Virus record (IMG/VR): IMGVR_UViG_3300032245_000237
Span: 1-41,727 of that record
DNA length: 41,727 bases
Source: a virus
Reading direction: 5' to 3' (one strand)
In this document: piece by piece, positions 9,065 to 25,873 of the stretch
Numbering within the stretch: position 1 is the first letter of the stretch
Layout of the letters: every line of letters begins with the position of its first letter
Made by a program: the position numbers and the translations under genes
Notes under the pieces: model-generated
Told to the model about the DNA's origin: nothing
Seen by the model: only the letters and a program-made list of their open reading frames with translations
Database searches by the model: none

Positions 9065-9143
9065 TTGCAATACCTTACGGTTTCTGATTAAATTCTCTTA
9101 TTGACGAACCGAACGGCGGTTCCGAAAGTAGGAGGCAAAAGTG
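9065..9143 (+). promoter_or_regulatory. Early leader A: promoter, hairpin, strong RBS, GTG start
   Basis: TTGCAA (9065-9070), 17 nt, AT-rich -10-like TTAAAT (9088-9093); CCTTACGG at 9073-9080; a 6-bp inverted repeat GAACCG-aacgg-CGGTTC at 9106-9122; then GGAGGCAAAA and the GTG at 9141. Almost the same block recurs at 14533-14608. The conservation runs through the start codon and stops there, so it is regulatory. Confidence 0.7.
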
Positions 9144-14532: not shown

Positions 14533-14608
14533 TTGACATACCTTACGGTTTTCTATAAATTTATCTTATTGAACCGAACGGCGGTTCTAAAGTACGGAGG
14601 CAAAAGTG
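14533..14608 (+). promoter_or_regulatory. Early leader B: promoter, hairpin, strong RBS, GTG start
   Basis: TTGACA (14533-14538), CCTTACGG (14541-14548), TATAAAT (14554-14560, spacer 15) or TAAATT (spacer 17), hairpin GAACCG-aacgg-CGGTTC (14571-14587), then GGAGGCAAAA and GTG at 14606. Near-copy of leader A, though the proteins that follow are unrelated. Confidence 0.75.
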
Positions 14609-17167: not shown

Positions 17168-17601
17168 ATACGAAGTTATCTGTTCGATTTCTTTTAGTAG
17201 CCGCGCTCGCGGTAGGAATCGGAGTAGCAACTCCAGCAGTTGCGCAATCGCCACAAAAGCATAAACCGTTTTTAACTGCTCGAACACCAGATGCAGCAAA
17301 ACAACATGCTCAACGGCAATTAGCACTTTACAGTTGGAATGCTAAACAATGGGGATGTTTGGAAACGCTCTGGCAGAAAGAAAGCAATTGGCGACCAGCA
17401 GCGCAAAATAAACAATCCGTTACTATAACTAAAAATGGAAAGAAAGTTAAAGTTCATGCAGGAGGAATACCACAAATACTTGGTATGTCACCAGCATTGA
17501 GCGTTGAGAGCCAAGTAGGACAAGGATTGAAATACATCCAAACCCGCTACGGTTCCCCATGTTCCGCTTTGAAGTTTCATCTAAAGCGAAACTACTACTA
17601 G
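17160..17601 (+). CDS. Secreted lytic transglycosylase-like protein, apparent frameshift at start
   Basis: The main frame (to the stop at 17601) reads KLSVRFLLVAALAVGIGVAT then PAVA-QS, a textbook signal peptide. The mature domain follows: LYSWNAKQWGCLETLWQKES (probable catalytic Glu in the KES motif), GGIPQILGM, then GLKYIQTRYGSPCSALKFH. This is the actinobacterial transglycosylase-like fold with its usual Cys pair. No ATG, GTG or TTG lies in this frame between the stop at 17149-17151 and TTG 17359, which is inside the domain. A TTG at 17160 after GAGGAGAGA is in another frame. Dropping one base near 17172 (TACGAAG to TACAAG) joins them as MARYKLSVRFLL. Either an assembly indel or a damaged gene. 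Confidence 0.6.
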
Positions 17602-17602
17602 A

Positions 17603-17628
17603 TTTCTTGGTGCCGTTCACCAAGGAAA
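17603..17628 (+). terminator. Hairpin after transglycosylase-like gene
   Basis: CTTGGTG-ccgtt-CACCAAG (17606-17624), extended by TTT/AAA with one bulge. It sits directly after the stop at 17601 and just before a second, stronger terminator. There is no T-run of its own. Confidence 0.45.
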
Positions 17629-17634
17629 ACGAAG

Positions 17635-17679
17635 CCCGACACCTGAGATTGCCTCCCAAGTGTCGGGTTTCACTTTTTT
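17635..17679 (+). terminator. Rho-independent terminator
   Basis: Perfect 8-bp stem CCCGACAC (17635-17642) / GTGTCGGG (17660-17667) with a 17-nt loop, followed by TTTCAC and six T (17674-17679). It ends the second early operon. Confidence 0.8.
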
Positions 17680-17680
17680 A

Positions 17681-17830
17681 CAACTCCACCACCGCCGCCA
17701 CCACCGCCTAAGTGCGCAAATCGCCGCCACCACCGCCTAAGTTTTGGCTTCCCACCACCGCCGCCACCGCCGCCTGAGTTTGCAATTTGCTGAGTTTTAC
17801 AACTCCACCACCGCCGCCTAAGTTGAGCAA
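17681..17830. repeat. GC-rich CCACCGCCG repeat in intergenic gap
   Basis: Four imperfect units. Each has a pure C/G-rich tract built of CCACC and CCGCC, then TAAGT or TGAGT, then an AT-containing spacer. Units 1 (17681) and 4 (17800) begin with the same 19 bases, CAACTCCACCACCGCCGCC. The minus strand has repeated GG runs (GGCGGCGGTGGTGG) that could form a two-tier G-quadruplex. No plausible gene crosses it. Composition is unlike the AT-rich surroundings. Confidence 0.85.
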
Positions 17831-17838
17831 TTTGATTA

Positions 17839-17851
17839 CTTACGGTGTAAG
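17839..17851 (+). promoter_or_regulatory. CTTAC-GGT-GTAAG inverted repeat before small basic gene
   Basis: Five-base arms with a 3-base loop lie 8 nt before the ATG at 17860, and contain the CTTACGG word of leaders A-C. TTGATT (17832) and TACGAT (17854) are promoter-like, but the latter touches the start codon. Confidence 0.35.
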
Positions 17852-17859
17852 GTTACGAT

Positions 17860-18027
17860 ATGGCAAAAGGCAAAAGTCGCGGAGAGCGCAATTCAGAACG
17901 AAAAAACGGTAAGGCTCCAAAAAAACATATAAAAGTTCAAAAGAAAACTGGTCGTACAATTGGTGGTTATTCCCCTGCCAAATTAGCGATTCGGGCGGAA
18001 AAGCGTAAACAAACCGTTGGAGAGTAA
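17860..18027 (+). CDS. Lys-rich basic microprotein (55 aa)
   Basis: MAKGKSRGERNSERKNGKAP ... KVQKKTGRTIGGYSPAKLAI, ending KRKQTVGE. About one residue in three is Lys or Arg, with few hydrophobics, so probably disordered or nucleic-acid binding. Its stop overlaps the ATG of the HslV-like gene (TAATG), and both follow the GC-rich repeat as a new transcription unit. Ribosome site weak (GTAAGG). Family not recognised. Confidence 0.6.
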   Translation: MAKGKSRGERNSERKNGKAPKKHIKVQKKTGRTIGGYSPAKLAIRAEKRKQTVGE

Positions 18028-18572
18028 TGACCACAATAATTGCATTACAAAAACCTGACTGCGTAATTATTGCGGCAGATAATCAAGTTACTTCAACGCG
18101 AAAATACCGCCATCCCAAAATGGCAAAGATTACAAAACGCGGTCAATATTTAATTGCAGGAAGCGGCGAGGTTGCTGCTTGCGATATAACTCAACACATA
18201 TTTGTACCACCCAAACCAAACCTAGAAGATAAAAAAGATTTGTACCATTTTATGATTGCTAAATTTGTACCAGCATTAAAAAAATGTTTTAAGGAACAAG
18301 AATATAAATGGCAACCAACTGTTGATGATGATGAATATGAAACCAAGTTCATGTTCTTAATTGCGATATGTGGGGAGGTGTTTGAAATTGCAGACGATCT
18401 TGCAGTTACTTTGGATGATTCGGGTATCTATGGAGTCGGTTCTGGGAGTGATATTGCTATTGGTGCATTACACGCAGGGGCTTCTTTAGATAAAGCATTA
18501 AAAATTGCAGCAAAAATTGATCCATTTACTTCTGCTCCGTTTATTAAGATGGAGCAAAAGAAAAATGGATAA
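18027..18572 (+). CDS. HslV/proteasome-like Ntn-hydrolase peptidase
   Basis: 181 aa, close to HslV length. It begins MTTIIALQKPDCVIIAADNQ. Removing Met leaves an N-terminal Thr. In mature numbering Asp17 (AAD) and Lys33 (KMAK) fall exactly where the proteasome/HslV catalytic residues are. The C-terminal YGVGSGSDIAIGALHAG matches the conserved G.GS..A.GAL segment. No propeptide, as in HslV. Members are self-compartmentalising rings that degrade unfolded substrates fed by an ATPase (HslU, ARC/Mpa). No ATPase is encoded here, so it would act alone, borrow a host ATPase, or poison host rings. Overlaps the HNH gene by 8 nt. Confidence 0.82.
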   Translation: MTTIIALQKPDCVIIAADNQVTSTRKYRHPKMAKITKRGQYLIAGSGEVAACDITQHIFVPPKPNLEDKKDLYHFMIAKFVPALKKCFKEQEYKWQPTVDDDEYETKFMFLIAICGEVFEIADDLAVTLDDSGIYGVGSGSDIAIGALHAGASLDKALKIAAKIDPFTSAPFIKMEQKKNG

Positions 18573-20683: not shown

Positions 20684-21160
20684 TTGTCATTACCAGAACC
20701 AGAACAACTCGATAAAGAGAACAAAGTTTTAGAATTGCGCCGCCTAGGATTAACTTGGAGCGAGATCGCAGATCAGACAGGCTACGCAACTCATGTAGGT
20801 GCTATGAAAGCCTATAAGCGCGTAATGGAGCGATACCAAAAAGAACCACGCGAAGACCTACAAACAATTGAGGTCGAACGCCTAAATAAAATTCAATCAG
20901 TATTTATGGAAAAAGCATTTGCCGATCAAGATGTTAGATCAGCAGCAATCGCATTAAAGGCAATAGAAATTCGCACCAAATTGCTAGGGTTGAATGAGCC
21001 AACTAGAATTCAACAGGACATAACAACTTGGGATGGCGATGAATCAATTGATAGAGCAGTCAAAGACCTCGCGGCTTTACTCACCTCAAACGATGAAGTA
21101 CGCCCAAGCGAGGGTTCAATGGCAGACGGTTCAGGCCAGAGCGAGCCAACTTCCTCCTGA
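20684..21160 (+). CDS. terS: Terminase small subunit (HTH)
   Basis: 158 aa, TTG start with GGGAG upstream. N-terminal HTH (ELRRLGLTWSEIADQTGYAT then AMKAYKRVMERY), a helical oligomerisation part (EVERLNKIQSVFMEKAFADQDVRSAAIALKAIEIRTKLLGL) and a polar tail. It recognises the packaging site and recruits the large subunit. Overlaps terL by about 128 nt. Confidence 0.75.
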   Translation: MSLPEPEQLDKENKVLELRRLGLTWSEIADQTGYATHVGAMKAYKRVMERYQKEPREDLQTIEVERLNKIQSVFMEKAFADQDVRSAAIALKAIEIRTKLLGLNEPTRIQQDITTWDGDESIDRAVKDLAALLTSNDEVRPSEGSMADGSGQSEPTSS

Positions 21161-22743: not shown

Positions 22744-23100
22744 ATGGCCAGTACATACAACACCGTTATTGACCAAGGAGCAGACTGGTTCCTAAATGTA
22801 ACTTGGGAAAATGTTGCTGGCGACCCAATTGATATAACTGGTTATACAGCAGCGCTTCAACTGCGTACTTCTCCATTGGCTAGAGTTGTATCACTAAACC
22901 TTACAACCGAAAATGACGGTCTTGCTATTAACGGCCCATTGGGTTTAGTAAGTGTTCACGCAACTAATGAGCAAACAGCATTACTTACACCACAAAGATA
23001 TACATACGATTTAGAACTTTATTCTCCTACCGATCCAGTTGTTGTTACCCGATTAATTCAGGGAACAATCGAAGTGTCTGCGAATACAACGCGTGAGTAA
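22744..23100 (+). CDS. BppU-like N-terminal-domain virion protein
   Basis: 118 aa, start signal GGAGAACAATG. YNTVIDQGADWFLNVTWENV then GDPIDITGYTAALQLR is the pattern of the beta-sandwich N-terminal domain of phage BppU-type baseplate and appendage proteins. It stands alone here, directly before the collagen-like gene, and overlaps its start by 8 nt. Probably the anchoring module for the fibre. Confidence 0.6.
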   Translation: MASTYNTVIDQGADWFLNVTWENVAGDPIDITGYTAALQLRTSPLARVVSLNLTTENDGLAINGPLGLVSVHATNEQTALLTPQRYTYDLELYSPTDPVVVTRLIQGTIEVSANTTRE

Positions 23101-25873
23101 TTGTAACTGCGCAGATTGCTGCGACAACATTGTTGTAGTTAGAGAACCAACAACCACCATAGCAATAACTGGTGGTGGCCCTGCTGGCCCACAAGGAACT
23201 ACTGGTGCGCAAGGTATTCAAGGTTTTGAAGGCCCACAAGGAATACAAGGCGTTCAAGGACTTGATGGTATTCAGGGTGCGCAAGGTACTGATGGCTTAC
23301 AAGGTGTGCAAGGAATTATTGGCGCACAAGGTCAAACAGGAATCCAAGGCGAAACTGGAATACAAGGCTTAGTTGGTAATCAAGGTACAACAGGTAGCCA
23401 AGGAACTTTAGGTACACAAGGTGCAACAGGTACTCAAGGTTTAATCGGAATCCAAGGTGTTGAAGGAATACAAGGAGTTCAGGGATTAGACGGAATCCAA
23501 GGAACACAAGGTATCCAAGGCGATGGCACACAAGGTACTGAAGGTGCGCAAGGTGCTACTGGTACTCAGGGCTTAATTGGTATTCAAGGTGAAATCGGAA
23601 TCCAAGGAATTCAAGGCTTTGATGGTTTACAAGGCTTAGAAGGATTGCAAGGTGTACAAGGCACCGATGGCATTCAAGGTTTTGATGGCACACAAGGCAC
23701 ACAAGGTTTAGAAGGATTACAAGGCGTTGAAGGTTTGCAAGGCATTCAAGGTACTAATGGTGTTCAAGGTTTTGACGGAACACAAGGCACACAAGGTCTT
23801 GAAGGCTTACAAGGTTTGCAAGGAGTTCAAGGAATTGAACCAGCCCAAGGCATCCAAGGTCTTATTGGTATTCAGGGAGAAACTGGATCACAAGGTTTAG
23901 ATGGAATTCAAGGTTTTGAGGGTTTACAAGGAACCCAAGGAATTCAGGGTTTTGACGGAACACAGGGCGTTGAAGGTTTGCAAGGAATTACTGGAACTCA
24001 AGGTGTTCAAGGAATTCAAGGACATGACGGAATTCAAGGACTTGAAGGATTACAAGGTTTAGAGGGTGCGCAAGGAACTCAAGGCATCCAAGGCAATAAT
24101 GGAATTCAAGGTCTAAACGGTATTCAAGGCGAAACAGGTTCTCAAGGATTAGAAGGAATCCAAGGACATGATGGCATCCAGGGTATTAATGGAATCCAGG
24201 GAACAACTGGCGCACAAGGTTTAGACGGCATTCAAGGCGAAATTGGTCTTCAAGGCATTTATGGAACACAGGGTGTTCAAGGCATAATTGGTTCTCAAGG
24301 AACCCAAGGTTTAATTGGTATTCAAGGACTTGATGGCATTCAAGGAGTTCAAGGTAATACAGGTGCTAGTGGAACCTCATCTTCTATTTTTGATTACCAA
24401 GCAAGAACTAACTCACAAACTCCACCACCTAATGCTGGCGACATTAAATGGAATAATGCAGTACAAATTCTTGCAACAAACATTTATGTATCTCACTTAA
24501 CAGCGCCAAATGTAGATATAGATGTTTTATTAGCAAACATAAAAAATGGCGACATCTTCTTTGTTCAAGATAGAAATAACTCTACTAATTATCAAGAATG
24601 GCAAGTAAACGGAACACCTACGACCGTTCCCAATGATTATTGGACTTATCCTGTAACACTTTTAACATCAAGTGGAACAGGTACAACAGGTTTTGCAAAT
24701 GGTCACAATATTTCTCTTATTACACAAAGCGTTGGTGTTCAAGGCGTTACTGGTGCGCAAGGAACAAATGGCGCTCAGGGAACTGTTGGCGCGCAAGGGT
24801 TACAAGGGTTGCAAGGAATTCTTGGCATACAAGGTGAAACAGGAACTCAAGGTTTAACTGGATCACAGGGTATTATTGGAATTCAAGGGGCAATTGGATC
24901 ACAAGGACTTCAAGGGCTGCAAGGACATGAAGGTAGCCAAGGTCTTGACGGAATTCAAGGCATAACTGGCGCACAAGGTTTAGACGGTATTCAGGGTCAG
25001 CGCGGATTACAAGGCGTTACAGGAACTCAAGGCGCTGAAGGATTACAAGGTACTCAAGGTTTACAAGGCCACGAAGGTATCCAAGGACAAATTGGATTAC
25101 AGGGTTTAACTGGCAGCCAAGGCACTCAGGGCTTACAAGGTGTTACAGGTAGCCAAGGTTTAGAAGGAATCCAAGGAACTCAAGGCGTACAAGGTTCTCG
25201 CGGCTTACAAGGAATGACTGGTAGCCAAGGAACTATTGGTGAAACTGGTGCGCAAGGAACACAAGGTGTTACAGGTTCTCAAGGAACTAATGGATTAAAT
25301 GGTTCTCAAGGAACACAAGGCATTCAAGGTAATCAAGGTTTAGTTGGTAGCCAAGGCACCAACGGATTAAACGGAAGCCAAGGAACTACTGGTAGTCAAG
25401 GATTAACTGGTAATCAAGGCTTAACAGGTTCGCAAGGTTTAACAGGTTCTCAAGGTTTGACTGGTAGCCAAGGATTAACTGGCATACAAGGAAATCAAGG
25501 AACTACTGGATCACAAGGTTTGACTGGTACTCAAGGCACACAGGGTGTACAAGGCACAACTGGAGTTCAAGGTACAACAGGTACTCAAGGATTTACTGGG
25601 TCGCAAGGTACAACTGGAACACAAGGTGTTCAGGGCTTAACTGGAATACAAGGTACAACTGGTAATACTGGTTCTCAAGGAACTCAAGGTACAACTGGTG
25701 TGCAAGGTTTAGTTGGAACTCAAGGTACACAAGGTATCCAAGGATTACTTGGTTTGCAAGGAACCCAAGGAATTCAAAGCACCCAAGGAACTACTGGAAT
25801 TCAAGGTGCGCAAGGAACTATTGGAACAACTGCAACAGCATTACCAGACATTTTAATGCTCGGTGGAATGTAA
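23093..25873 (+). CDS. Giant collagen-like fibre protein
   Basis: 926 aa, GTG start overlapping the upstream gene. Residues 1-25 are Cys-rich (SNCNCADCCDN). Two Gly-X-Y collagen arms (about 27-425 and 548-912) flank a globular domain of about 120 residues (SSIFDYQARTNSQTPPPNAG ... WQVNGTPTTVPNDYWTYPVT). It ends ALPDILMLGGM. Gln is in almost every second Y position, and Pro is nearly absent. Breaks in the triplets occur at GIEPAQG and GIQSTQG. Phage collagen-like proteins form trimeric fibres or capsid fibres. Its place between terL and portal suggests a head decoration or long adhesion fibre; which one is unknown. Confidence 0.8.
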   Translation: MSNCNCADCCDNIVVVREPTTTIAITGGGPAGPQGTTGAQGIQGFEGPQGIQGVQGLDGIQGAQGTDGLQGVQGIIGAQGQTGIQGETGIQGLVGNQGTTGSQGTLGTQGATGTQGLIGIQGVEGIQGVQGLDGIQGTQGIQGDGTQGTEGAQGATGTQGLIGIQGEIGIQGIQGFDGLQGLEGLQGVQGTDGIQGFDGTQGTQGLEGLQGVEGLQGIQGTNGVQGFDGTQGTQGLEGLQGLQGVQGIEPAQGIQGLIGIQGETGSQGLDGIQGFEGLQGTQGIQGFDGTQGVEGLQGITGTQGVQGIQGHDGIQGLEGLQGLEGAQGTQGIQGNNGIQGLNGIQGETGSQGLEGIQGHDGIQGINGIQGTTGAQGLDGIQGEIGLQGIYGTQGVQGIIGSQGTQGLIGIQGLDGIQGVQGNTGASGTSSSIFDYQARTNSQTPPPNAGDIKWNNAVQILATNIYVSHLTAPNVDIDVLLANIKNGDIFFVQDRNNSTNYQEWQVNGTPTTVPNDYWTYPVTLLTSSGTGTTGFANGHNISLITQSVGVQGVTGAQGTNGAQGTVGAQGLQGLQGILGIQGETGTQGLTGSQGIIGIQGAIGSQGLQGLQGHEGSQGLDGIQGITGAQGLDGIQGQRGLQGVTGTQGAEGLQGTQGLQGHEGIQGQIGLQGLTGSQGTQGLQGVTGSQGLEGIQGTQGVQGSRGLQGMTGSQGTIGETGAQGTQGVTGSQGTNGLNGSQGTQGIQGNQGLVGSQGTNGLNGSQGTTGSQGLTGNQGLTGSQGLTGSQGLTGSQGLTGIQGNQGTTGSQGLTGTQGTQGVQGTTGVQGTTGTQGFTGSQGTTGTQGVQGLTGIQGTTGNTGSQGTQGTTGVQGLVGTQGTQGIQGLLGLQGTQGIQSTQGTTGIQGAQGTIGTTATALPDILMLGGM
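23180..25830 (+). repeat. Coding repeat: collagen Gly-X-Y DNA
   Basis: Degenerate 9- and 18-base periodic repeats (CAAGG...) in two blocks around a unique segment (about 24371-24735). Codons vary between units (GGT, GGA, GGC; CAA, CAG), so selection holds the protein pattern rather than the DNA. Reading-frame shadows in this block are not genes. Confidence 0.85.

Follow-up and report, generated by a model that had tools for sequence, protein, structure and literature searches.

The virus record IMGVR_UViG_3300032245_000237, analysed here over its whole length of 41,727 bases (hereafter the window), carries a short GC-rich repeat in a non-coding gap of an AT-rich phage genome. What this repeat is, where it came from, and which part of the gap matters to the phage are the questions raised by the locus. 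The gap and its neighbours contain the following features.

17170–17601, plus strand: transglycosylase-like gene, the neighbour upstream of the predicted RNA in most lineages
17603–17627, plus strand: first hairpin (hairpin 1) of the predicted RNA regulator, with CCGTT as its apical loop (17613–17617); the arms covary and the loop is conserved
17631–17671, plus strand: second, terminator-like hairpin (hairpin 2) of the same predicted RNA; its loop has TTGCCTCC (17649–17656), antisense to GGAGGCAA
17676–17834, plus strand: insertion read as a GC-rich, non-coding minisatellite, about 159 bp, sense strand C-rich, with blocks of 24, 15, 24 and 15 nt
17686–17709, plus strand: C-rich block 1, 24 nt
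17724–17738, plus strand: C-rich block 2, 15 nt
17752–17775, plus strand: C-rich block 3, 24 nt
17805–17819, plus strand: C-rich block 4, 15 nt
17848–17859, plus strand: −10 box of a leaderless promoter (TAAGGT) and 6 nt, before the ATG at 17860
17860–18027, plus strand: small basic ORF of 55 aa, first gene after the insertion, with 50 relatives
18027–18572, plus strand: phage-encoded proteasome/HslV-like Ntn-hydrolase gene, the downstream neighbour, with at least 98 viral relatives

Composition and setting of the GC-rich repeat

A sequence-only reading had described four GC-rich units in a non-coding gap, and position, composition, shuffles and the list of open reading frames all agreed with it. 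The blocks consist of CCN triplets (15 or 24 nt); after each of them comes TAAGT or TGAGT, then an AT-richer spacer. The units are in tandem but diverged, their spacing varies (29 and 37 nt in a single family), and the linker between blocks 3 and 4 (17776–17804) resembles that of an array in another viral contig, L300, described below. Over 150 bp the repeat reaches 60.7% GC, the maximum of the window, whose mean is 40.4% (sd 5.2); the second-highest stretch (58%) lies within a Gly-rich gene. The C content of the same 150 bp is 42.7%, and elsewhere in the window it is at most 34%. In 160 nt of repeat, CCNCCNCCNCC occurred 14 times, compared to a mean of 0.07 in base shuffles, and a two-block pattern derived from the repeat was found 3 times in the window and never in 100 dinucleotide shuffles. 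No ORF of at least 70 aa in the window covers the repeat, no inverted repeats were found in the insert, and its sense-strand RNA is predicted to be unstructured (fold z 0.7).

The repeat had also been placed between a strong terminator and a new operon, and this setting held on both sides. On the left, the “strong terminator” (17603–17671) is part of a two-hairpin element with a fold z of −5.7. On the right begins a new transcription unit, with TANNNT, 6 nt and an ATG. Of 35 distinct sequences upstream of the peptidase gene in relatives, 26 have TANNNT at a distance of exactly 6 nt from the ATG, and the small ORF of the window also has TANNNT just before its ATG. Since a TANNNT −10 box a few nucleotides before the start is the motif of leaderless actinobacterial promoters (PMC3898074), this arrangement suggests that the host is actinobacterial. 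Further downstream, adjoining the terminase gene, positions 20684–21160 match a PHROG named RNase E, which could bear on RNA regulation.

Relatives were gathered via the downstream peptidase gene, the small ORF and the terminase. The closest sequences have the same terminator as the window, and also the box behind it and the next gene. In L006, L007/L209, L226 and L227, the two flanks are joined directly, without an insert (CACTTTGGTTACTTACGG, CACTTATATTACTTACGG, CACTTAGATTACTTATGG). Among the closest sequences compared, the approximately 159 extra bp at the terminator-to-promoter junction were found in the window only, and a scan of phage relatives with TRF gave no comparable GC-rich intergenic array outside ORFs. 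As the insert is missing from the closest relatives, any function it may have is not conserved.

Origin and possible roles of the repeat

Arrays of a similar kind were found in two unrelated viral contigs, L300 (4382–4562, 3.4 copies) and L093 (7717–7872, 2.9 copies), both incomplete. These intergenic arrays have a perfect 54-nt period, made of a 24-nt GGY core and a 30-nt linker, and both reach the end of their contig immediately ahead of an operon, whose sense strand is the C-rich one. The linker of L300 is similar to that of the window (AAAACTCAGCAAATTG-CAAACTCA against AAAACTCCGCTAATTGCCGAACTCA): none of 5000 shuffles was as good, and a value of 0.004 was obtained for the part outside the search pattern. 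The L093 linker had no significant similarity to the main window linker (0.13), while a value of 0.007 was obtained with a shorter linker of the window. Searches of phage records and plasmids gave short GGY matches only, mostly under annotated genes, and Agrobacterium plasmid matches to the repeat also lay outside listed genes. Among genome contigs with a two-copy pattern, 33 matches were inspected by eye and none had the same build. One match, in MW202801, seemed intergenic and turned out to lie in an unannotated Gly-rich ORF of this public phage genome (L342, 1793–2668).

That comparable arrays run into contig ends would fit an error of metagenome assembly. We consider such an error very unlikely in the window, where both flanks continue the syntenic order of the relatives and where the longest exact internal repeat found in the insert is 24 nt, far below a usual read, with diverged copies.

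Could the repeat be debris of Gly-rich adhesin DNA, as had been proposed? The minus strand of the insert does read as Gly-rich coding DNA, N(S/L)GGGGG(GGG). Moreover, among the viral matches listed for a pattern made from the insert, 117 of 119 fall within open frames 120 aa long or longer, mostly Gly-rich and nearly all on the opposite strand. The window has two Gly_rich_2 (PF21722) genes of its own, which share 17-nt exact matches with the insert. The blocks, however, alternate between two frames, so that no single open frame of the Gly_rich_2 type runs through all of them, and no parent gene was found, the window's own Gly-rich genes scoring 35.6 bits against 46.4 for unrelated ones. The linker similar to that of the window is, in addition, found in the intergenic array of L300. 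Capture of rearranged Gly-rich tail or adhesin coding debris, in antisense and by illegitimate recombination, is thus somewhat unlikely in our opinion. The proposal was only half right: the GGY idiom on the minus strand stands, and the best structural parallels are the intergenic 54-nt arrays. The window also encodes, at 23093–25873, a 926-aa collagen-like protein of GxQ/GTQ repeats.

A role as a G-quadruplex, a replication origin or a packaging element had been suggested as well. The G-runs of the minus strand allow six quadruplex motifs, all of them two-tetrad. No canonical motif (four runs of at least 3 G) was present in the repeat, and its best G4Hunter score of 1.32 was nothing special, as other places in the window also pass 1.2; the quadruplex potential is ordinary. 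GC skew did not reverse at the repeat, and relatives with the same terminase gene lack the repeat, which argues against a packaging or origin role. We regard all three roles as extremely improbable.

The insert might instead act as a Rho-loading (rut) insulator, its C-rich, G-poor and unstructured sense RNA recruiting Rho and stopping read-through into the peptidase operon. The plus-strand maximum of C minus G per 78 nt lies here (26, compared to 20 elsewhere), the published rule (78 nt, C/G above 1, a C every 11–13 nt) is satisfied at a C/G of 3.3, and the lack of structure (z 0.7) and of an ORF of at least 70 aa fits such a role. The L300 and L093 arrays are likewise C-rich on the sense strand ahead of an operon. 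The rules are loose, however, since 25 plus-strand regions have a C/G of at least 2; a hairpin terminator already stands upstream; and close relatives without the insert keep the same operon. Rho loading by the insert is a possible role, not a conserved one, and we find it quite doubtful.

We read the repeat as a lineage-specific, phage-specific GC-rich minisatellite, perhaps ultimately of Gly-coding origin. It consists of tandem units, is non-coding and varies between close relatives; short diverged units, variable unit length and restriction to one lineage are shared with minisatellites and tandem intergenic repeats in general. It differs from usual minisatellites by its GC-rich core in an AT-rich phage, and by the fact that similar 54-nt arrays were found in two other contigs only. 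Repeated short elements near gene starts exist in actinophages, namely the start-associated sequences of Cluster K mycobacteriophages; to our knowledge these have a different sequence and no GGY core. The minisatellite, with its GGY core of 24 or 15 nt (minus strand) and AT-richer linkers, probably grew by slippage and recombination. Its neighbours are hairpin 2 of the predicted small RNA on the left and the leaderless promoter with its −10 box on the right; in this place it would be mostly neutral, with perhaps a slight effect on transcription across the gap.

By itself the repeat is ordinary, and the conserved and functional part of the gap would be the adjoining RNA. Taken together, we find it fairly probable that the locus combines a phage-specific minisatellite with a conserved two-hairpin RNA that probably represses phage leaders.

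A two-hairpin RNA predicted next to the repeat

Several lineages carry the two-hairpin element in the same syntenic position, ahead of the HslV-like peptidase gene. The transglycosylase gene (in some cases plus one further gene) precedes it and the peptidase gene follows it in G002, G005, G006, G011, G014, G015, L016 and L275. In G003 and L012 the peptidase gene follows the element, and no transglycosylase match was found within about 1.5 kb. The stems differ between lineages, and the loops read CCGTT(C/T) in hairpin 1 and a C-rich anti-Shine-Dalgarno sequence in hairpin 2. A terminator hairpin with a T-run was seen in G006, G014, L275 and L015.

The arms of hairpin 1 were compared among 12 phages, which have 11 distinct stems, and 86 of 88 cells were paired. 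When arms were swapped between phages, a mean of 56 cells paired, and none of 10000 swaps was as high as 86. Such covarying arms provide the conserved secondary structure expected of a trans-acting, base-pairing small RNA. The element had no Rfam match above the gathering score, the window contains no tRNA or Rfam match, and no published description of the element was found in a literature search of partial coverage.

Predicted target leaders and their co-variation with the loops

Both loops have counterparts elsewhere in the same phage. Other genes have 5′ leaders with AACGG hairpin loops, to which loop 1, CCGTT, is complementary; loop 2, TTGCCTCC, is antisense to the Shine-Dalgarno region of those leaders, GGAGGCAA. 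This design, an AACGG-loop hairpin followed by a Shine-Dalgarno sequence and a start, occurs twice in the window and also in relatives. The two predicted targets in the window are the following.

9106–9140, plus strand: predicted target leader 1, an AACGG-loop hairpin followed by GGAGGCAA; the gene starts with GTG at 9141
14571–14605, plus strand: predicted target leader 2, an AACGG-loop hairpin followed by GGAGGCAA; the gene starts with GTG at 14606

Both genes are small and of unknown function, in a region that also has exonuclease and nucleotide-kinase genes. In several phages, a ACCTTACGG box lies a few tens of bases upstream of the AACGG leaders (about 9070–9111 and 14540–14576, also in G002, G006 and L275), which is possibly a shared phage promoter.

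Loops and leaders change together across lineages. Most phages have CCGTTC as loop 1; in G006 and G014 it is CCGTTT, and the leader loops there are AAACGG. Loop 2 reads TTGCCTCC in phages with GGAGGCAA leaders, TTTGCCTCTC with leader GAGAGGCAAA in L275, CCTCCAGTAA with leader TTACTGGAGG in L012, and CTCCAGTT with leaders AACTGGAG in G011 and G015. For G015 and G011, the RNA was predicted from the leader sequences, then found with the expected loop 1. In G011, G015 and L275 the RNA was searched with the expected loop-2 letters, and the loop-2 complementarity there is partly by selection; independent of that search are the synteny in all three and loop 1 in G011 and G015. Over seven lineages, the true pairing of loop 2 with leaders scored 60.2; permutations averaged 47.2, and 12 of the 5040 equalled the true pairing, a contrast that lies mainly between two loop-2 classes and not strictly phage by phage. 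If only the five lineages detected by their loop 1 are kept, the number is 2 of 120 permutations (counted by hand from the permutation table). At the level of classes, the complementarity thus changes with the leaders, as expected for a small RNA and its targets.

The match is less regular in places. In L275, loop 2 is present and a CCGTT loop is missing, and in G002, as in one of the two G003 leaders, only 5 nt are common with loop 1. Counted over all loci, AACGG hairpin leaders (52) did not clearly exceed every permuted-letter control, the highest of which, with letters overlapping the motif, reached 57; it is among the true relatives that the signal is seen. Among 251 leaders of the window, the two hairpin leaders rank 4 and 5 in pairing with loop 2. 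Several other leaders of the window carry Shine-Dalgarno sequences of the GGAGGCA type. Two of these, which have no AACGG hairpin (15719 and 10098, with 21039 set aside as a probably spurious start), pair more strongly with loop 2, which means that the target set may be wider, or that loop 1 may add specificity.

An alternative is that the hairpins are tandem terminators only, the likeness of the loops being coincidental or reflecting a shared protein-binding site rather than RNA-RNA pairing. Hairpin 2 is indeed terminator-like, with a T-run in several phages, and the loop complementarity includes the universal Shine-Dalgarno core, GGAGG, which the ribosome keeps fixed in leaders anyway. Yet the loops are complementary to the leader loops, not identical to them; matching changes occur on both sides across lineages; and the arms change while the loops stay conserved. 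We hold terminators alone to be an unlikely explanation.

The two-hairpin element is probably a phage-encoded RNA repressing the leader genes. From the sequences, their synteny, the structural covariation and the lineage-specific complementarity, we infer that the RNA would be made, would pair with the leaders and would repress them. It would be encoded upstream of the HslV-like peptidase gene, mostly just after the transglycosylase gene. Loop 1 (CCGTT) would make a loop-loop contact with the AACGG hairpin loop of a leader, and loop 2 (TTGCCTCC) would pair with the Shine-Dalgarno region (GGAGGCAA). Because this region would be masked by the loop, translation should be repressed; the likeliest outcome is that ribosome binding is blocked, and expression of the target genes would then fall after transcription has reached the transglycosylase region. 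For these uncultured, probably actinobacterial phages, we lean towards a dedicated RNA regulon, in which a single small RNA would shut several genes by two contacts made at once, a loop-loop kiss and an anti-Shine-Dalgarno loop, both co-evolving with the targets.

C-rich loops pairing with Shine-Dalgarno sequences are known from bacterial small RNAs, for example staphylococcal RNAs. The predicted RNA shares with them a C-rich loop aimed at the Shine-Dalgarno sequence. It differs in being phage-encoded and aimed at phage leaders, in carrying the anti-Shine-Dalgarno sequence in a terminator-like loop, and in having a second conserved loop that matches the leader hairpin. Within phages, a recent review lists P22 sar, a small trans-acting RNA that pairs with ant mRNA and blocks its translation (PMC12197685). 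Like sar, the RNA of the window would be a small phage RNA pairing with phage mRNA near the translation start and repressing it. For sar one target is listed there (PMC12197685), whereas several leaders per phage, a hairpin-plus-Shine-Dalgarno design and two separate loop contacts are predicted here. In the accessible part of that review, RNAs by which phages act on phage genes are mostly antisense or single-target, and none is described that has several targets and two loops, one fitting a leader hairpin and the other its Shine-Dalgarno sequence (PMC12197685).

If the prediction is true, such phages would control their own genes with a conserved regulatory RNA that has several targets, an element found by comparison of phage genomes alone. 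It would suggest a way for them to silence some of their genes at the level of translation.
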